64,000 nucleotides of DNA from Bacteroidales bacterium (GTDB lineage: Bacteria > Bacteroidota > Bacteroidia > Bacteroidales > FEN-979), in assembly GCA_030681475.1 (NCBI GenBank), contig JAUXWT010000011.1, positions 1 to 64,000 of the forward strand. Direction: 5' to 3'. The notes under the pieces are model-generated. The model ran no database searches, had not been told where the DNA came from, and was given only the letters and a program-made list of their open reading frames with translations. Positions 7,955 through 61,562 of the stretch are shown in pieces. Position numbers and translations under genes: made by a program. How positions within the stretch are numbered: the first letter of the stretch is position 1; each line of letters opens with the position of its first letter.

Positions 7955-9430
7955 CTAATATTGAAAATAAATAAACTGTCCACCGTCGAAAACTCCGATA
8001 AGCAGGATGAGCATAACCATCGAAACAATGGTGCCGATCCTGATTGCTGAGTATTTATTGTACAGGAGTGAAATCCGGGCATTAAAAAATTCCCTTTTAA
8101 GATCAAGGGTTATCAACATCAGTATTCCAAATATGGCGTATACCAGATTCCCGGGTGATTCATAAAATGGCATGCCATGGGTCAGGAAAATCTTTTTGAT
8201 CACATCAAGGGCTTCGTTTAATGTATTCGATCTGAAAAAGATCCAACTGAACGATACCAGTATAAAAGTCAGGATGATTTTATACAAAATGTACGAAGGT
8301 GTGGTTTTTCGGATTTGAAAACGTTTCCTGATGTTTCTGTTCAATTTCTGCGTCCAGTTTGAATAGGTAAGATATATGCCAAATAAAAGTCCCCACACCA
8401 GGTATGTCCATCCTTCTCCATGCCATAATCCGCAAATGGCAAAGGTGATCATGATTGAAAAAAGGTAGATCCATTTTTCGGTGGCAATAAAAAGATATTG
8501 ATTCTTTTTCATCCTCTTTGAGAAGAACCAGGCCAGGGGGAGAAACACGTAATCCCTGAGCCATGTGGAGAATGTAATGTGCCAGCGGTTCCAGAAATCA
8601 CTTACCGATGTGGCAAAATAGGGACGTCTGAAATTTTCAGTCAGCCTGATCCCGAAAAGTTGGGCCGATCCCAACGCGATATCGGTGTATCCTGAGAAAT
8701 CGGCGTAGATCTGGAAAGCAAAAAATATGGTTGCAATAATCAGTGTAGTTCCATTGTGATGTTCGCTGTTGTTATATACTGCATTTACATAAATTGCCAG
8801 CCGGTCGGCCACAACCAGCTTCTTGAAATATCCCCAAAGCATCAGCTTCAGGCCACCGGTAACAAGATCGTAATCAAAGGCATGAGTTTCACGGAGCTGG
8901 GGTAACAATTTTTGGGGGCGCTCTATTGGACCCTGCGCAATACGTGGGAAAAACAACAAGTACAATGAGAAATATCCGAAATGCCGCTCAGGCAATATGT
9001 TCTTCCTTTTAATCTCCACATGATAGCTGATCACGGTAAATACCAGGTAAGACAATCCCAATGGAATGATCATCCTGGTTACCGGGTCTACACGGTAAAA
9101 CCAATCAACAAAATACAGATTAACTTTAAGGTCAGGAAAGAAGAAGTTGAAATACTTGAAAAAAGCAAGGACCAGGATGTTTATTAAAACAATGATGGTC
9201 AATCCCTGCTTCCCGTGCCCTCGATCATTGACACTGAACAACCACCTCCCGCCAAAATAGTTGCCGATCACAAGCACCCCGATCAGGGCGAAAAAAATCG
9301 GGATGAATGATAAATAATATGCCACACTCGCCAACACCAGCCAAAGCCATCTGAAACGATCCGGGAAAATGTAATACGCTGCCACGATCAGCGGGAGGAA
9401 GAACAGGTAGGAGATGGAGGTGAAAATCAA
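7955..9430 (-). CDS. MBOAT family O-acyltransferase (AlgI/PatA-like)
   Basis: Polytopic membrane O-acyltransferase that passes acetyl groups from the cytoplasm to the periplasmic side for polysaccharide modification. Diagnostic motifs are SDFWNRWHITFSTWLRDYV and the catalytic His in CGLWHGEGWTYLVWG; ARIAQGPIERP-type sequence lies upstream of them. Length 491 residues with about 10-12 hydrophobic helices fits AlgI/PatA/DltB relatives. The start appears to be TTG (9428-9430), because the N-terminus IFTSISYLFFLP matches the family start and no in-frame ATG precedes it. A TTAAG tandem array begins one base upstream of that codon. Paired with the SGNH gene downstream. Confidence 0.88.
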   Translation of the reverse strand: MIFTSISYLFFLPLIVAAYYIFPDRFRWLWLVLASVAYYLSFIPIFFALIGVLVIGNYFGGRWLFSVNDRGHGKQGLTIIVLINILVLAFFKYFNFFFPDLKVNLYFVDWFYRVDPVTRMIIPLGLSYLVFTVISYHVEIKRKNILPERHFGYFSLYLLFFPRIAQGPIERPQKLLPQLRETHAFDYDLVTGGLKLMLWGYFKKLVVADRLAIYVNAVYNNSEHHNGTTLIIATIFFAFQIYADFSGYTDIALGSAQLFGIRLTENFRRPYFATSVSDFWNRWHITFSTWLRDYVFLPLAWFFSKRMKKNQYLFIATEKWIYLFSIMITFAICGLWHGEGWTYLVWGLLFGIYLTYSNWTQKLNRNIRKRFQIRKTTPSYILYKIILTFILVSFSWIFFRSNTLNEALDVIKKIFLTHGMPFYESPGNLVYAIFGILMLITLDLKREFFNARISLLYNKYSAIRIGTIVSMVMLILLIGVFDGGQFIYFQY

Positions 9431-9489
9431 GTATTAAGTGTTAAGTTTTAAGTGTTAAGTTTTAAGTGATTAAGTTTTAAGTGTTAAGG
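9431..9489. repeat. TTAAGTG/TTAAGTTT tandem array
   Basis: Seven or so units of 7-8 bp, all variants of taagttt/taagtga, abut the TTG start of the MBOAT gene. The same unit in inverted orientation lies at 10450-10497, bracketing the HTH and small membrane protein genes, and larger copies occur at 16975-17126 and 17524-17562. Confidence 0.85.
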
Positions 9490-9549
9490 GTAAATCAACC
9501 TCCCGAGGGGGGGCGCCAGATTAAACATAGATTAAACACTCCTTAAAGG

Positions 9550-9692
9550 AAGACGAAACAACCTCGCATACATGTCGCATGGAAGACGAAACAAGGCTTA
9601 GACAAAGACGAATGAAATGACAACACCGGATTTGTAAAATATTTTTTTCGGGGGACGCAACCTTTTTGCTGTTTCTCCTGTCGATAGATATA
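9550..9692. repeat. Diverged intergenic repeat, copy B (in gene-free 9490-9860)
   Basis: Second copy of the repeat described at 6590-6752, same orientation, with the shared block tgctgtttctcNtgtcgat at its right end. The two copies flank the SGNH/MBOAT pair. The remainder of the spacer up to 9860 holds a T-rich run and TTACCTTTTG (about 9804-9813), one base too long for a -7 element. Confidence 0.55.
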
Positions 9693-9860
9693 TTAGGCCA
9701 TTTTATGACCTGATATCATTTTCATCTTTTTCGGCAGGGGTGCAAAACGCTGCCAGAAACAGACAAATGATGACAAAAGACGACAATTTTTTTTTCGTGT
9801 ATTACCTTTTGATGATCAACCCGATTAACCTTTATAATCACTTATTAAAAACTCAAAACC

Positions 9861-10139
9861 ATGAAAACAACAAATGTCAGTCAAACGACCAATGCCGAAA
9901 TCTACCGGCTGGTGAAACAACTTGAACTACGCCTGGATGAAATACAGGCAAACAGCCTGCCCTGGCTCGATGCCGCGGATGTGTGCAGGAAACTCAAAAT
10001 CTCCAAACGGTCGCTCGACCGTTACCGGATGTCGGGGGCGCTTCCATACAGCAAAATCAAAAGGAAGATTTTCTATTCCGTGACCGATATTCTGCACTGC
10101 CTGGAGGACAACAGGGAACGGAAGGAGCGTATGTTATGA
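9861..10139 (+). CDS. Helix-turn-helix (HTH_17/MerR-like) DNA-binding protein
   Basis: Small putative DNA-binding protein of 92 residues. An N-terminal helix (EIYRLVKQLELRLDEIQAN, about 12-30) looks coiled-coil forming; residues 34-85 form a winged-helix-like domain with LDAADVCRKLKISKRSLDRY and SKIKRKIFYSVTDI, the pattern of the helix-turn-helix-17/excisionase group common in Bacteroidota. Role likely local regulation or recombination directionality; neither is shown. Its stop overlaps the next start as ATGA (10136-10139). Lying between inverted TTAAG arrays, it may be part of a small accessory unit. Confidence 0.7.
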   Translation: MKTTNVSQTTNAEIYRLVKQLELRLDEIQANSLPWLDAADVCRKLKISKRSLDRYRMSGALPYSKIKRKIFYSVTDILHCLEDNRERKERML

Positions 10140-10408
10140 ACTCCCGGTTAAACATGTCCGGCGTGAAATTTTCGCAAACGGTCACCGTCGCCGGCTTCAT
10201 CATGGGATTCGTGACCATATGGATCCACCTCGAGATCTGCATCGCGGAGATCAACGTGGACCTGACCAACCTTAAACAGGACGTGATCATGCATAAAACC
10301 GACAACCGCAAAGACATGGAATTATTACGGAACGACAACAACGACAACACGTTGGAAATTTTGCGGAAAGTGGATGAAATTCAGATATACCTTAGAAACA
10401 AAAAGTAA
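10136..10408 (+). CDS. Small single-pass membrane protein with coiled coil
   Basis: 90-residue protein of unknown function. Start chosen at the ATG overlapping the preceding TGA (ATGA), which implies translational coupling; a longer reading in the same frame would only add sequence overlapping the HTH gene. One hydrophobic helix spans about residues 14-32 (VTVAGFIMGFVTIWIHLEI), followed by a charged, heptad-like region rich in Asp, Asn, Leu and Ile up to the C-terminus. The layout recalls small membrane coiled-coil proteins such as holin or Bdr-like products, but no family assignment is justified. Probably co-transcribed with the HTH gene. Confidence 0.55.
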   Translation: MNSRLNMSGVKFSQTVTVAGFIMGFVTIWIHLEICIAEINVDLTNLKQDVIMHKTDNRKDMELLRNDNNDNTLEILRKVDEIQIYLRNKK

Positions 10409-10449
10409 GCAATGCAAACAATGCAGAGCAAATTATATGGCTTAATGAA

Positions 10450-10497
10450 AACACTTAAAACTTAATCACTTAAAACTTAATCACTTAAAACTTAAAA
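10450..10497. repeat. Inverted TTAAG-type tandem array
   Basis: Units acttaaa/acttaatc repeat about six times, the reverse complement of the array at 9431-9489. The pair brackets 9861-10408. A short extra unit (tacttaaaact) lies directly before the ATG at 10563. Confidence 0.85.
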
Positions 10498-11173: not shown

Positions 11174-11240
11174 GCTTTTCCTGGCAAAGCATGCTGATAA
11201 ATTTTTATGTTGCTTCAAATGTCAAACGATCAGATTTTAC

Positions 11241-11332
11241 GCTGTGAACCTCTGTGACTACTCTGTGAACCTCTGTGTAACAATATTTTATAACACAGAG
11301 AACCACGGAGAAGACACAGAGAACCACAGAGA
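11241..11332. repeat. Imperfect palindrome of CTCTGTGAAC units, copy 1
   Basis: Left arm repeats ctgtgaac/ctctgtga, right arm repeats cacagaga/accacgga; the two are inverted around a taacaatattttataac centre. A nearly identical copy lies at 14087-14177. The right arm ends five bases before a GxxExxY relic. Confidence 0.85.
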
Positions 11333-14006: not shown

Positions 14007-14086
14007 CGGTATTTTATTCAGTTTGCCGGATAAAGTGATAGAACATCAGGTGTCCGAAAATTAAACATACAACGCTGCGAACTAAT

Positions 14087-14177
14087 CTGTGAACCGCTGT
14101 GACTACTCTGTGAACCTCTGTGTAACAATATTTTATTACACAGAGTACCACGGAGGAGGCACAGAGAACCACAGAGA
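14087..14177. repeat. Imperfect palindrome of CTCTGTGAAC units, copy 2
   Basis: About 90 bp nearly identical to 11241-11332, including the centre taacaatattttatta. Unlike copy 1 it has no recognisable gene relic beside it. It lies in the gene-free stretch 13980-14445. Confidence 0.85.
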
Positions 14178-15978: not shown

Positions 15979-16974
15979 TCATTGCTTCAGGTTCTTCCGG
16001 TACCACTCCACGGCCAGTTTCAATCCTTTTTCAAAGTCATATTCCGGCTGGTATCCGAGGATCCTGGCTGCTTTTTCGATCGAGGCGAGGGAGTGGGGGA
16101 TGTCGCCTTTACGGTCGGGACCGTGGGTGACGGGAACGTTCCGGATCTCCGGATCGAACGCCGACAGGTATTTTACCAGCAGGGAGGCCATCTGGTTCAG
16201 GTCATTCCGTTCCCCGGCGGCGGTGTTGAACACCTGGTTGATGGCTTCGGGGTTGGTGGTGGTTGCAGCGAGGTGGTTCATCCTGATCACGTTATCAATG
16301 TAGGTGAAGTCGCGGGAATGGGTACCGTCGCCGTGTATTTCGGGCGGCCGGTGCGCCATCAGCAGCATGGTGAATTTCGGGATCACCGCGGCATAGGCGC
16401 CGTTGGGATCCTGCCGGCGGCCGAAAACGTTGAAGTAGCGCAGCCCGATGGTCTCCAGTCCGTAGTTCAGGGCGAAAACGTGGGCATACAACTCATTCAC
16501 ATACTTTGTCACGGCATAGGGTGAAAGGGGTTTACCGATGATCTCTTCCACCTTGGGAAGGGTTTCGGAATCGCCGTAGGTGGAGGAGCTTGCGGCATAA
16601 ACGAATCGCTTGACTTTTGCATCACGGGAGGCCACCAGCATATTCAGGAATCCGCCGATATTCACCGCATTGGTGGTTGCCGGATCGTTTATGGAACGGG
16701 GAACCGAACCCAGCGCAGCCTGTTGCAGGATGATGTCCATGCCTTCAGCGGCTTTCCGGCAATCATCGGGGTTCCGTATATCTCCGGTGATGAGCCTGAA
16801 CCTTTTGTGATCGATGAATTCGCTGATGTTCTCCAACCTGCCGGTCGAAAAGTTGTCGAGACAAACCACTTCGTTGTCATGCTTCAGCAGGTCTTCACAA
16901 AGGTTCGACCCGATGAAGCCTGCGCCGCCGGTGATCAGTACGCGTGAATTTTTTATTTCAGGAGGAGGAGGCAA
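15979..16974 (-). CDS. WbpP-like UDP-GlcNAc 4-epimerase
   Basis: Extended SDR enzyme interconverting UDP-GlcNAc and UDP-GalNAc (or the uronic acids) for surface glycan synthesis. Motifs: LITGGAGFIGSNLCEDLLK (about 13-31), AALGSVPRSINDPATTNAVN, characteristic of the WbpP/TviC/Gne group, SSSTYGDSE, YAVTK as the YxxxK pair, and RYFNVFGRRQDP. The 331-residue length is normal. The only in-frame start upstream of the Rossmann motif is TTG at 16972-16974, immediately beside a TTAAG array; start assignment is therefore uncertain. Transcribed away from the export genes at 17.8 kb but likely serves the same polysaccharide. Confidence 0.85.
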   Translation of the reverse strand: MPPPPEIKNSRVLITGGAGFIGSNLCEDLLKHDNEVVCLDNFSTGRLENISEFIDHKRFRLITGDIRNPDDCRKAAEGMDIILQQAALGSVPRSINDPATTNAVNIGGFLNMLVASRDAKVKRFVYAASSSTYGDSETLPKVEEIIGKPLSPYAVTKYVNELYAHVFALNYGLETIGLRYFNVFGRRQDPNGAYAAVIPKFTMLLMAHRPPEIHGDGTHSRDFTYIDNVIRMNHLAATTTNPEAINQVFNTAAGERNDLNQMASLLVKYLSAFDPEIRNVPVTHGPDRKGDIPHSLASIEKAARILGYQPEYDFEKGLKLAVEWYRKNLKQ

Positions 16975-17126
16975 GTTTTAAGTTTTAAGTGATTAAGTTT
17001 TAAGTTTTAAGTGATTAAGTTTTAAGTTTTAAGTGATTAAGTTTTAAGTGATTAAGTTTTAAGTTTTAAGTGATTAAGTTTTAAGTGATTAAGTTTTAAG
17101 TTTTAAGTGATTAAGTTTTAAGTGAG
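16975..17126. repeat. Long TTAAGTTT/TTAAGTGA tandem array
   Basis: About 20 units of 7 and 8 bp alternating (taagttt, taagtgat), starting at the base next to the epimerase start codon. Same unit family as 9431-9489; its inverse lies at 17524-17562 on the other side of the four-helix-bundle gene. Confidence 0.92.
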
Positions 17127-17171
17127 TTTATGGGATGGGGTTATCCGGGAAAATGAAGTTGTTAGATTGAT

Positions 17172-17519
17172 TCATCGCTTAATACTTTTAATTAACCCTT
17201 GGAGCATGGAGGAAATTTCTTTAGTTTCGGTTATTATTGGTCGGGTGATTGCCGGAGTGAGCAATTCTATCTTTTCGGCAATATATAATTGGGTGCGTAA
17301 TTCGGCTGCTGATCCTTTTGCAATATGCATGAAGTGAGTAAATTCTTTTACTGAGTTACGTTCAGCGCCTTCAGCAATATTTGACGCGACCGAAACAGCC
17401 GCCCTGGTCATCTGGTCTTTTAAACCATAATCTCTGCAGTCTTTCAAGGCAAAATATATCTCAACAGCCAATTTACACGCCCTTTTCCAAACCTCCAACT
17501 CCTCAAACGACCTATACAT
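17172..17519 (-). CDS. Four-helix-bundle protein (23S rRNA intervening-sequence type)
   Basis: 115-residue all-helical protein of the family first seen in intervening sequences of 23S rRNA genes (S23/IVP). Signatures: FEELEVWKRACKLAVEIY at the start, GLKDQMTRAAVSVASNIAEG (about 37-56), and HIAKGSAAELRTQLYIA. Complete length. Molecular function is not known; the fold is thought to bind nucleic acid or protein surfaces. This copy is not in an rRNA gene but stands alone between inverted arrays of the same TTAAG unit, 46 bp from the left array and 4 bp from the right one. Context suggests a cassette that travels or recombines with its arrays. Confidence 0.88.
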   Translation of the reverse strand: MYRSFEELEVWKRACKLAVEIYFALKDCRDYGLKDQMTRAAVSVASNIAEGAERNSVKEFTHFMHIAKGSAAELRTQLYIAEKIELLTPAITRPIITETKEISSMLQGLIKSIKR

Positions 17520-17523
17520 CCCC

Positions 17524-17562
17524 CTTAAAACTTAAAACTTAAAACTTAAAACTTAAAACTTA
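17524..17562. repeat. Inverted TTAAG-type array
   Basis: Five to six perfect acttaaa heptamers, the reverse complement of the 16975-17126 array. The gene-free stretch 17520-17840 continues with unremarkable sequence until the 9-mer array at 17723. Confidence 0.9.
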
Positions 17563-23545: not shown

Positions 23546-23579
23546 TTTATGGTGGGGGGATTATTTAGTTTGGCGACTG

Positions 23580-23632
23580 GGTGACAGGGTGACAGGGTGA
23601 CAGGGGGACAGGGGGACAGGGGGACAGGGGGA
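23580..23632. repeat. Octamer array ggtgacag/ggggacag
   Basis: Six tandem 8-bp units; the T of unit position 3 changes to G after the third unit. Inverse arrays follow at 23696-23750, and a third in this orientation at 24591-24640. Confidence 0.92.
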
Positions 23633-23695
23633 TTAACGAAATCATAATTGTTGGAGTAATTAAAAGACATAAGTCGATTTTTTTTTGTTACTTTG

Positions 23696-23750
23696 TTACC
23701 CTGTCACCCTGTTACCCTGTCACCGTATCACCGTATCACCGTATCACCGA
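23696..23750. repeat. Inverted octamer array (ttaccctg/tcaccgta)
   Basis: Seven 8-bp units ending six bases before the ion-channel ATG. The first units resemble a TTACTTTG sequence just upstream (23689-23696), so the array may have grown from a -7-like element. Confidence 0.9.
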
Positions 23751-23755
23751 AAATT

Positions 23756-24598
23756 ATGTTCTTTCGATTCAAAACCCGCGAAGTAACGACGTTCATAATG
23801 ATATCACTGTGTATCTACGTTGTATTCATTATGGGCTTTGCCTGGATCTATTATAAAACGGGCAGCATTGAAATGACGCCATACGCTACGCCATACAGCC
23901 ATACACGATCAGCGTACGAACTGCATAAGATCAATTTCGAAAAGTCGATCTATTTCAGCATTGTTTCGTTCCATACCATCGGGTTCGGCGACATTCACCC
24001 GATAACCCAGATTGGCAGGCAGATCGTGATGATCCAGTCGACCATCTCCCTGTTTTTTACCGCCATATTTTCAGGATTCCTTGTCTATTTCGTCATAAAG
24101 CGGCCGCGGGATGTTTTTACAACGAACAGAGTCTACATCCGCCACCGCAATGATCATTATGTCCTTTCGTTGCGGGTGGGTAACAAAGGGCGCGACATCA
24201 TTGACCTGAAGAGCAAGTTTGAGGCCTGGACGATTGAGCATAATACACGGATAAGGATATTCCGCCTCGAAGAGGAGTTGCCTGATCTTGAAAAAATACT
24301 ATACTATGACCTGGACCTCGACGATCACGAGCTTGCACCGCTGCGTCATGCACTGGTGGATGCTCTGAAAAAAGAAACCTTGCTGCATATGAAGTTTTCA
24401 TTCATCGGAAACGACATCAAGACCGGCGAACAAGTAGCCTATGCCAAATATTATGATTCAGGTCATCTGAGCTTTGGGAAAATGTTCCTCAATGTCTATT
24501 CCTGGGATCCGAACGGCAGACGGAAAAACTTCCATTGGGGCAATTTTGAACGGATTGAACCGATGGAGCCGAAATTAGTTGAGGGGTTTTACAGGTGA
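23756..24598 (+). CDS. Kir-like (inward-rectifier-type) potassium channel
   Basis: 280-residue two-helix potassium channel subunit. TM1 is about residues 12-32, the pore helix and filter follow at 66-82 with SFHTIGFGDIHP (TIGFGD instead of TVGYGD), and TM2 is about 87-107. The remaining 170 residues are a beta-rich cytoplasmic domain resembling KirBac: IRHRNDHYVLSLRVGN and HLSFGKMFLNVYSW. Start taken at the ATG after the octamer array; earlier in-frame codons lie inside the array. The TGA stop (24596-24598) is part of the downstream array. The gene is thus enclosed by inverted arrays. Function likely K+ flux; ligand control unknown. Confidence 0.75.
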   Translation: MFFRFKTREVTTFIMISLCIYVVFIMGFAWIYYKTGSIEMTPYATPYSHTRSAYELHKINFEKSIYFSIVSFHTIGFGDIHPITQIGRQIVMIQSTISLFFTAIFSGFLVYFVIKRPRDVFTTNRVYIRHRNDHYVLSLRVGNKGRDIIDLKSKFEAWTIEHNTRIRIFRLEEELPDLEKILYYDLDLDDHELAPLRHALVDALKKETLLHMKFSFIGNDIKTGEQVAYAKYYDSGHLSFGKMFLNVYSWDPNGRRKNFHWGNFERIEPMEPKLVEGFYR

Positions 24599-24640
24599 CA
24601 GGGTGACAGGGTAACAGGGTGACAGGGTAACAGGGTAACG
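24591..24640. repeat. Octamer array ggtgacag/ggtaacag
   Basis: Six units of 8 bp that contain the stop codon of the channel gene and end about 10 bp before the convergent MsrBA stop codon. Same orientation as 23580-23632, inverted relative to 23696-23750. Confidence 0.92.
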
Positions 24641-33071: not shown

Positions 33072-33110
33072 TAAACCACTAAGGTACTAAGAGCACTGAG
33101 AAACACTTAG
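33072..33110. repeat. Outer CCACTAAGG-type repeat, left
   Basis: taaaccactaaggtactaa followed by gagcactgag. Its inverse (ctcagtgcctaagtggttt) lies at 33626-33648. The pair encloses the GxxExxY locus outside the CGCAGAG arrays. Confidence 0.75.
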
Positions 33111-33187
33111 TAATATGGACTAATTCGTTATTTGATATGTTGGATTGATTATATTAGGATTTCGGTGGCACCTTTGATATAGAATTT

Positions 33188-33216
33188 TTCACCGCAGAGG
33201 CGCGGAGACGCAGAGA
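33188..33216. repeat. Inner CGCAGAG array, left
   Basis: accgcagaggcgcggagacg then cagagat: three to four units of cgcagag type. It touches the stop codon of the GxxExxY gene. Inverse at 33510-33540. Confidence 0.9.
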
Positions 33217-33492
33217 TTAAAAATTATTAACATACCGTTTGAACCCATTTTTCAAGACACCAACATTAAAATTAACCAGAAATCCAAGTTTCTTATTGGT
33301 TAACTTCAGATAGGAAATTATTTGAGCTTCGTAAACAGGATGCATTATTTCAGCGGATTTTAATTCAAGGATTATTTCATTTTCAACAAGAATATCAATT
33401 TTAAGTTCTCTTGATAACTCGTATCCCTTATACAGCAAGGATATAGGAACCTGATTTTTGGCCATTATATTTCGTAATTCAAATTCCGTCAT
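33217..33492 (-). pseudogene. 5'-truncated GxxExxY (PD-(D/E)XK nuclease-like) gene
   Basis: 91 residues of a family normally about 125. Present are LYKGYELSRELKIDILVENE with the active-site Asp, the E-x-K in LELKSAE, and the C-terminal LGFLVNFNVGVLKNGFKRYV. Missing is the N-terminal helix with the GxxExxY motif: homology fades exactly where the right-hand CTCTGCG array begins (the in-frame codons before ATG read CL after a stop three codons earlier). It may still yield a shortened protein, since the catalytic residues remain. Enclosed by two nested inverted repeats. Function of the family is unknown; it is often found with such repeats in environmental genomes. Confidence 0.8.
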
Positions 33493-33509
33493 CAGGCATT
33501 GTTAATAAA

Positions 33510-33540
33510 TCCTCTGCGTCTCTGCGTCTCCGCGGTTATT
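33510..33540. repeat. Inner CTCTGCG array, right
   Basis: cctctgcgtctctgcgtctc then cgcggtt, inverted relative to 33188-33216; about 18 bp upstream of the truncated gene's ATG. Confidence 0.9.
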
Positions 33541-33625
33541 AATTGTATTGCTTTTCAACGAAAGCATGAATAATCGAATACCCACATCTATTTCTCTCTA
33601 GCCAATTTTCGTGATCCTGAACGCC

Positions 33626-33648
33626 CTCAGTGCCTAAGTGGTTTTAAC
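33626..33648. repeat. Outer CCACTAAGG-type repeat, right
   Basis: Inverse of 33072-33110 with a few substitutions (ctcagtgcctaagtggtttt). Together with the inner arrays this gives two concentric inverted-repeat layers around one small gene. Confidence 0.7.
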
Positions 33649-34351: not shown

Positions 34352-34385
34352 TTGTAAATCCTCTGCGTCTCCGCGTCTCTGCGGT
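34352..34385. repeat. CTCTGCG array
   Basis: cctctgcgtctccgcgtctc then tgcggttt, same orientation as 33510-33540. It lies about 20 bp upstream of the DAHP synthase -7 element. Confidence 0.85.
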
Positions 34386-34403
34386 TTAAATTTCTTTTAT
34401 CCT

Positions 34404-36480: not shown

Positions 36481-36652
36481 CCAAATATCCTTGAAAATAT
36501 TCCGGTTGCAATATCTTGGCTAAATTTTATTTTGATGTGCTGGAAAGTTTTTTCGATGTTTAATTAATCCTATTTCTGTATTAAAAAGGATATAAGCTCT
36601 TAAAAGTTTTTGAATGATCATGAACCAGGGTTTTACGGCTATCTTGCAAAAA

Positions 36653-36752
36653 TCATAATCCCCGTTTGGGGTCATTTAGCCCGAAGGGCTGACATGATTA
36701 TAGCACGAAACGGGGTAGTAATTTCATAAACCCCGAAGGGGTGACATTATTC
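36653..36752. repeat. REP hairpins, left of the RAYT gene
   Basis: gcccgaagggc and accccgaaggggt hairpins in the same order and spacing as at 12.4 kb and 14.3 kb. The second hairpin encodes the last residues of the transposase. Confidence 0.88.
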
Positions 36753-37177
36753 TTCATTTCAAATTTTTTCAGGAACTCTATGTATTCCTCCCTAAATGTT
36801 TTCTTCCGGTGATGCTCTTCCTGATGCAAGATGTACTGATACACAAGACCGATCTGGGAATGTGCATAGGAAAACGACCCAAAACCCTCCTGCCAGGAAA
36901 ATTTACCCCGCACAATTTTTTTATCGTTGATAAAATTGGACGTGTTGTTCTTTACATCCCTGACTAAATCGGACAATGCCATGGAAGGCCTTAATCCTAT
37001 TAACAAATGGACGTGATTTGAAACACCATTTACAATAATCGGTTTTTGATTTTTTCCTTTAATGATCCCGGACATGTATTTAAAGATTTCTTCACGCCAT
37101 GGTTGTTGTAATAAGTTGTCCCTGCCTTGTACGGCAAATACAACCTGAATGTAGATTTGAGAATATGTTCCTGCCAT
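36698..37177 (-). CDS. REP-associated tyrosine transposase (RAYT, Y1_Tnp)
   Basis: 159-residue HUH-type single-strand transposase of the IS200/REP-associated group. N-terminal YSQIYIQVVFAVQGRD, the HUH motif NHVHLLIGLRP (His-55/His-57) and the catalytic-Tyr region LVYQYILHQEEHH near residue 125 are all present. REP-associated transposases process REP hairpins, here the ccccgaagggg elements on both sides and at 12.3-14.5 kb. The last 14 residues (NNVTPSGFMKLLP...) are translated from a REP hairpin. No cargo gene; so it is a domesticated RAYT rather than a full IS. Confidence 0.88.
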   Translation of the reverse strand: MAGTYSQIYIQVVFAVQGRDNLLQQPWREEIFKYMSGIIKGKNQKPIIVNGVSNHVHLLIGLRPSMALSDLVRDVKNNTSNFINDKKIVRGKFSWQEGFGSFSYAHSQIGLVYQYILHQEEHHRKKTFREEYIEFLKKFEMKNNVTPSGFMKLLPRFVL

Positions 37178-61426: not shown

Positions 61427-61562
61427 TCACGAAGTTCCACGAAGAGTTCACGAAGCTCCACGAAGGTTATAAAACATATCTTTTCAATCCGTTTTTCAAA
61501 TGCCATATCCTCTTAATTTTCTTCGTGTAACTTCATGCGACCTTCTTTTAACTTCGTGTAAC
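61427..61562. repeat. CACGAAG/CTTCGTG inverted arrays (gene-free 61311-61820)
   Basis: Left array 61427-61466 repeats ttcacgaagttccacgaag; right array 61519-61562 repeats cttcgtgtaact. They face each other around a 52-bp centre that contains the tail of a GxxExxY-like gene. From 61563 to 61790 I see nothing further. Confidence 0.88.
61467..61499 (-). pseudogene. Relic tail of a GxxExxY gene
   Basis: The minus strand reads LKNGLKRYVL and a TAA, the C-terminal signature of GxxExxY proteins (compare VLKNGFKRYV in the 33.2-kb copy). Only about ten codons remain; the stop codon touches the CTTCGTG array. Ten residues is a short match, so I keep confidence moderate. Confidence 0.45.

Follow-up and report, generated by a model that had tools for sequence, protein, structure and literature searches.

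Inverted heptamer arrays around a decayed GxxExxY nuclease gene in a Bacteroidales genome and around its family

A decayed nuclease gene inside two inverted pairs

The window, the whole stretch of 64,000 nucleotides that we analysed (G000:C65:1-64000), belongs to a Bacteroidales genome (G000) of 4.24 Mb in 111 contigs. Between an asnS-like ORF and a small membrane-protein-like ORF, and not within an rRNA gene, it holds the remnant of a GxxExxY gene (TIGR04256/PF13366) that is bracketed by inverted CGCAGAG arrays, and these are nested within a second inverted pair (CCACTAAGG). The outer left arm, AACCACTAAGGTACTAAGAGCACTGAGAAACACTTAG, lies at 33073-33110 (+ strand); it follows a CRCNRAG grammar, belongs to an old hairpin, and aligns at the same site in five related loci (L080, L082, L086, L089 and L090). 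Next, at 33118-33147 (+), is the left terminus of the inner element, GACTAATTCGTTATTTGATATGTTGGATTG, of ISL3 type; it is homologous to the left end of the best paralogue, L127, whose end family connects it in turn with an ISL3 insertion sequence (IS). The inner left array at 33190-33215 (+; CACCGCAGAGGCGCGGAGACGCAGAG) carries the inward heptamers CGCAGAG, CGCGGAG and CGCAGAG. The GxxExxY (PDDEXK_3) remnant occupies 33217-33501 (- strand), with an ORF of 91 aa at 33217-33492 and a homologous frame that, by eye, starts at about 33501. A deletion junction, TTGTTAATAAAT, at 33499-33510 leads to the inner right array of three inward heptamers (33511-33537, -), which is followed by the right part of the inner element (33538-33603, homologous to L127 as far as 33603) and by the outer right arm, CGTGATCCTGAACGCCCTCAGTGCCTAAGTGGTTTT (33610-33645, -). 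A third CGCAGAG-type array lies at 34361-34383 (-), and 34361-34395 pairs also with 33181-33215 (89% over 35 nt).

The first-pass annotation of this DNA had proposed two nested layers of inverted repeats, and both layers proved to be well above the shuffled background. By local alignment, the inner arrays (33190-33215 with 33511-33537) pair at z 10.4 and the outer arms (33073-33110 with about 33610-33645) at z 6.1, and in each case 0 of 1000 dinucleotide shuffles equalled the native pairing. The inner and outer layers are built on one common heptamer grammar. Eight clusters of at least three CRCNRA[GT] heptamers occur in the window, compared with a mean of 0.05 and a maximum of 1 in 100 mononucleotide shuffles. 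The close fit of the gene between the inner arrays was also described correctly: the stop codon (33217-33219), said to touch the left array, is one base away from the array's end at 33215, and DNA homology to L127 runs unbroken through the gene to 33510, with the right array, at whose end homology was said to begin, starting at 33511. Having inward CRCNRA[G/T] arrays on both sides of its GxxExxY remnant, the window copy is a member of the array-bracketed GxxExxY cassettes, and a decayed, dead one.

The ORF scores over the cut-offs of both family profiles, with E 1.7e-23 and 83.7 bits for PF13366 (cut-off 22) and 86.8 bits for TIGR04256 (cut-off 35), and it matches the first only from profile position 33 and the second over positions 32-116 of 116, which bears out its description as a truncated GxxExxY gene. 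In a six-frame search that passes through one TAA, the TIGR04256 alignment starts at profile position 23. The catalytic Asp and E-x-K, reported earlier to survive, are indeed kept, as is Q-x-x-x-Y. The window copy differs from the rest of the family in its deleted N-terminus, and with it has gone the G-x-x-E-x-x-Y motif that gave the family its name, of which, among 56 aligned relatives, the G is nearly invariant and the E and Y vary hardly or not at all.

The best paralogue (L004, in G000:C111, re-read as L127) is 93% identical to window positions 33120-33510 (391 nt) and 85% identical to 33499-33603. These two matches overlap at a 12-base direct repeat, TTGTT[C/A]ATAAAT, which L127 has at 1389 and again at 1471 and the window has once, at 33499. 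The window copy therefore lost 82 bp between the repeats TTGTTCATAAAT and TTGTTAATAAAT, both of which L127 retains. The alignment thus supports a loss of the N-terminus, with G-x-x-E-x-x-Y, through an 82-bp deletion beside the array edge, and gives a size and boundaries to the array-edge deletion that had been suggested. L127 too may be defective, since by eye it has no ATG at the start site of the copies in two other genomes (G001 and G002).

Insertion into an older hairpin and the ISL3-type ends

We compared the window site with the asnS loci of 29 relatives (L080-L108), one of which (L108) breaks off within asnS, short of the site. In the other 28, a tblastn search with the window protein (E 1e-3) found no GxxExxY gene in the roughly 1500 bases upstream of asnS. 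A hairpin test on the 190 bases upstream of asnS at 14 same-genus loci detected an outer-type, gene-less hairpin at three of them (L082, z 13.6; L090, z 6.8; L080, z 3.1); L086 and L089 retain the outer left arm with no significant hairpin, and the remaining nine have z <2.3. The outer left arm, aligned only at five loci chosen by eye, is thus kept at 5 of the 14 sites, three of them with the whole hairpin. The presence of the outer hairpin, with no gene, at the same site in same-genus genomes makes the outer layer the older one and the GxxExxY element the later arrival. This comparison of an occupied site with empty ones supports what had been read from the nesting, namely that one element, the GxxExxY element, inserted into another, an older hairpin. 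Nesting and deletion, the substance of the earlier interpretation, are therefore supported; it overlooked that arrays go with the whole family, that both layers use a common heptamer, that ISL3-type ends are present and that G-x-x-E-x-x-Y is gone.

L127 has inverted ends, GGCTAATTCGTTATTTGATGTGC and GACTAATCCGTTATTTGATGTGC, with an exact 12-bp direct repeat outside them, and lies upstream of rpsF, where the element is absent from all seven relatives examined. Similar ends occur on further copies, several of them in genome G036 and others in G033 and G026. A search for the ends across 43 family genomes gave matches in six, and one of these genomes (G027) holds a 1510-bp IS whose 25-nt ends are identical and which encodes a DDE_Tnp_ISL3 transposase (E 4.6e-38), so that the terminal repeats of the L127 paralogue family are common to an ISL3 IS. 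PF01610, the transposase profile, had no match in the window genome and was found in two of nine genomes searched (G027 and G026). ISL3-type elements are expected to produce target duplications of 8 bp. Among the seven copies with both ends, two from G036 have such a duplication (L112, exact 8 bp; L110, 7/8), L127 has its 12 bp, and L116, L300, L301 and L303 have none.

Because its best paralogue has ISL3-type ends, a non-autonomous element of ISL3 type was probably the vehicle of the window copy, although the lack of a transposase match in G000 and the four copies without a duplication speak against this. L127 and the G036 copies resemble ISL3 insertion sequences and their non-autonomous derivatives in that their end family matches the 1510-bp IS, but they differ from it in having no transposase inside and instead a nuclease gene with arrays, and the window copy has only the left end, its right terminal repeat not having been found.

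Several further observations concern these ends and sites. The same gap upstream of rpsF holds other short arrays in two relatives (TTTGTCA and GTCAC; L289 in G001 and L294 in G016), so one gap attracts different arrays. In G006, six elements of about 580-1160 bp (L335-L338, L341 and L345) are bounded left and right by ISL3-type ends, and none of their ORFs of at least 75 aa is a GxxExxY gene. A Y1 (IS200-like, RAYT) transposase gene lies at 36698-37177, 3 kb from the cassette and amid CCCCGAAGGGG-type repeats. We considered it as a mobiliser and set it aside: a single ISL3-type, end-like sequence lies at 36518, with no second one in the window at <=5 changes. RAYT/REP elements have hairpins spread through the genome, and cassette-type hairpins are likewise genome-wide; however, the CRCNRAG arrays are unlike the repeats by the Y1 gene, and we found no link between the two. 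Plasmids and phages were rejected as a source of GxxExxY genes, as one query at E 1e-5 matched 8 of 72,556 plasmid and 0 of 50,697 phage records.

Arrays, heptamers and fold across the GxxExxY family

Arrays accompany the GxxExxY gene family as such, in many bacterial phyla and in archaea. Our first sample took the 80 best-scoring of at least 583 GxxExxY loci and is biased accordingly; its taxa include Bacteroidetes, Acidobacteria, Planctomycetes, Chloroflexi, Verrucomicrobia, Gammaproteobacteria, Elusimicrobiota, Ignavibacteria and two archaea. After 12 loci with short flanks were dropped, inverted arms (z >4 against dinucleotide shuffles) were present at 54 of 68 loci, the other 14 falling under z 4. 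At least two inward CRCNRAG heptamers occur on one side of the gene at 66/68 loci and on both sides at 58/68. Arms with such a cluster (n=109) carry two or three heptamers in 97 cases and four in 12, spaced mostly 8-10 nt apart, and their outer context is rich in TTT[C/A]AC. A second, less biased sample consisted of further paralogues from 24 of the first-sample genomes (40 taken, 5 dropped as first-sample duplicates, 35 left), and inverted arms were present at 27 of these, with 8 under z 4. At least two inward CRCNRAG heptamers were found on one side at only 17/35 and on both sides at 8/35, and for this reason we dropped the idea that CRCNRAG flanks every GxxExxY gene. When CRCNRAT, which is as common as CRCNRAG in this sample, is counted too, the numbers become 28/35 and 19/35. 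In the window genome, inverted arms occur at 7 of 8 GxxExxY loci (eight of ten search hits, two not being included).

Inverted arms were found at 0 of 30 HEPN control loci, all drawn from the window's phylum, and at least two heptamers in any orientation and on any side at 1/30 HEPN and 2/30 four-helix-bundle controls. Cross-locus scores were discarded as a null for the arms, in favour of dinucleotide shuffles, because loci share array types and the four-helix-bundle set also shares flanks. The first-pass annotation had named many intact homologues without arrays as the finding that would speak against it, and with arms at 54/68 and 27/35 loci most homologues are otherwise. Target duplication directly outside the arms was not enriched among 45 loci, which leaves cassettes that lack IS ends with no visible mechanism of insertion. 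In the accessible parts of the open-access literature on GxxExxY or PF13366, including PMC8934634, the arrays are not treated, and nothing was found there on the array heptamers.

The type of heptamer follows the protein. The last base could be labelled at 87 of 108 loci (72 G, 14 T and 1 A; 21 unlabelled) and requires 3 changes on the protein tree, compared with a mean of 14.1 when labels are shuffled (0/200 as low). Positions 2, 4 and 5, labelled at 74, 45 and 76 loci, require 11, 12 and 18 changes against shuffled means of 20.1, 14.4 and 24.6; position 4 is near random (11/200 shuffles as low), whereas positions 2 and 5 are not. The tree itself is poorly resolved, with 15 of 105 inner branches starred. 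In 70 of 76 loci, both arms have the same base at position 2. The link between heptamer and clade is consistent with a protein that recognises the arrays, although co-inheritance of gene and arms would give the same link. The last base changes less often than the other variable positions do, which speaks for constraint. Ten genomes, by hand count, have both G- and T-types (G000, G214, G219, G220, G223, G228, G230, G232, G235 and G236), which makes recognition directly testable.

GxxExxY proteins are predicted to be PD-(D/E)XK nucleases. A model of L001, a full-length copy in the window genome, built from the 56-sequence alignment, has a pLDDT of 95.5. Its nearest match by VIA-align is Cas4 SSO0001 (4ic1_G; Z 9.6, rmsd 4.5, 100 aligned), and the next rows are mostly restriction-type nucleases with Z 8 and below. 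The top Foldseek rows are the same Cas4 entry, lambda exonuclease and alkaline exonuclease, the best at E 1.4e-3. Since none reaches 0.001 and best Z scores of 7 to 8 are common without relationship, "Cas4-like" denotes the nearest fold, a label supported by the D, E-x-K and Q-x-x-x-Y motifs; the PD-(D/E)XK fold fits, with Cas4 as its nearest subgroup. A phmmer search against solved structures gave nothing of note. Holliday-junction resolvase function of the Hjc type was considered and rejected, Hjc giving Z about 6 to 7 for the L001 model, lower than Cas4.

Proposed movement, relics and competing explanations

Cassettes differ in presence between related genomes at other sites as well. In Bacteroides finegoldii a cassette flanked outwardly by arrays separates radA from an FAD-dependent gene; the same gap is 13 bases long in Parabacteroides distasonis and holds another, unrelated-looking ORF in Phocaeicola massiliensis. 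Sphingomonas parapaucimobilis has a GxxExxY gene between fabD and fabG, where only a left array was seen, and the gene is absent from this position in S. paeninsulae.

Within G000, one subfamily forms a series of decay, from the full-length L001 through L008, which has an internal deletion, to a CACGAAG hairpin at 61428-61562 in the window. The hairpin matches L008 at 93% and 90% on the two sides of a further 152-bp gap (blastn). It retains only the last GxxExxY codons, and gene-less hairpins can thus be deletion relics. Among 35 CGCAGAG-type matches, a hand count gives eight inward pairs whose loops measure 14-24 bases, a further one whose loop measures 224 bases, and two that bracket GxxExxY genes (L004 and the window copy). 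The 224-base loop (L128, G000:C8:9645-9870) contains a CACAGAG array and is thus a further case of one array type nested in another.

We think it rather probable that the dead copy in the window derives from a mobile cassette, consisting of a PD-(D/E)XK nuclease gene between two inward CRCNRA[G/T] arrays, and that ISL3 arrival, arm recognition and relic hairpins belong to its history. The window copy would have come in as part of a non-autonomous ISL3-type element, whose insertion point was the loop of an older hairpin. In intact cassettes, the nuclease may recognise the heptamers of its own arms, either folded or as double strand, and cutting at the arms might help the cassette to move or persist. 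At least some gene-less hairpins would be remnants of cassettes that lost their gene through a deletion between the arms. Most likely the GxxExxY nuclease reads the arrays and acts at these arms of its cassette, which would be mobile and in some cases carried by IS ends; binding, cutting and movement are presumed activities. The arrangement of a gene between arrays looks like a little-noticed kind of mobile cassette. More tentatively, and with some doubt on our part, GxxExxY cassettes could be widespread, undescribed minimal selfish elements of bacteria and archaea, in which a Cas4-like nuclease reads a G/T heptamer code set by clade, itself drives movement and leaves gene-less relics. If correct, the cassette explanation would provide a role for a nuclease family known mainly by its motif name and an origin for many of the scattered CACAGAG/CGCAGAG-type hairpins in such genomes. 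The importance lies in the family rule, the window copy itself being dead.

The proposed mobile cassette has a counterpart in the foldback elements of eukaryotes, which have long terminal inverted repeats made of short tandem units. GxxExxY cassettes are likewise long inverted repeats of short units, but they are bacterial or archaeal and contain a nuclease gene, and their transposition is inferred.

Alternatively, array and gene together could be mere cargo of ISL3-type or other insertion elements, the arrays having no role for the nuclease. The ISL3-type ends on L127 and on the copies in G036, G033 and G026 agree with this, as do the G006 elements, which have the same ends, and the homology within the CACGAAG subfamily, which also extends beyond the arrays. 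We nevertheless regard it as unlikely, because none of the 80 many-taxon loci was listed with an ISL3-type end at <=4 changes, and because arrays accompany the gene from phylum to phylum, with the heptamer's last base tracking the protein clade.

That same link between heptamer and clade would be expected if the nuclease bound the flanking arrays as operators, regulating its own expression or that of a host operon, with no part in mobility. Named copies are co-oriented between genes, for example between fabD and fabG, in agreement with this possibility. However, arrays are found on both sides and inverted, gene-less hairpins occur elsewhere, and one gene-less hairpin in the window contains a relic of the gene; regulation as the sole function thus seems improbable to us.

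According to the available part of PMC4990558, the intervening sequence (IVS) of 23S rRNA with its S23/four-helix-bundle gene is a selfish element. The cassette resembles it in being a putative selfish element with a small gene enclosed by inverted arms, and differs in lying outside rRNA and in having another protein and another repeat grammar; relatives of the IVS protein (PF05635) are likewise bracketed by inverted arrays in G000 (7/10). A similar mechanism at the RNA level, with pairing of the arms once transcribed and excision of the resulting stem, is quite improbable, since the annotated GxxExxY copies examined sit among protein genes and not in rRNA, L421 has a left arm only, and the predicted fold is nearest to DNA nucleases. 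Lastly, short repeats and hairpins are prone to template switching, but we find it hardly credible that local switching at hairpins made the inverted arrays and that the gene is there by chance, given arms at 0/30 HEPN versus 54/68 GxxExxY loci, the conserved outer context and the site polymorphism.

The window has further arrays. At 16973-17562, inverted AAGTTTT/AAAACTT arrays enclose a four-helix-bundle gene of the 23S IVP family (17196-17504, -); inverted arms accompany genes of this kind at 7/10 loci in the window genome and at 18/30 in a sample from the phylum, with a repeat grammar unlike that of GxxExxY. Compact, gene-less CACAGAG hairpins at 11238-11332 and 14073-14177 have their units facing outward, opposite to the gene brackets. 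An AAGTGTT-type array and its inverse (9429-10495) surround small ORFs, one of which encodes what appears by eye to be an excisionase-like DNA-binding protein. Finally, GACAGGG and TCACCCTGT arrays at 23575-23749 and 24594-24639 lie in inverted order beside a gene that by eye is ion-channel-like.
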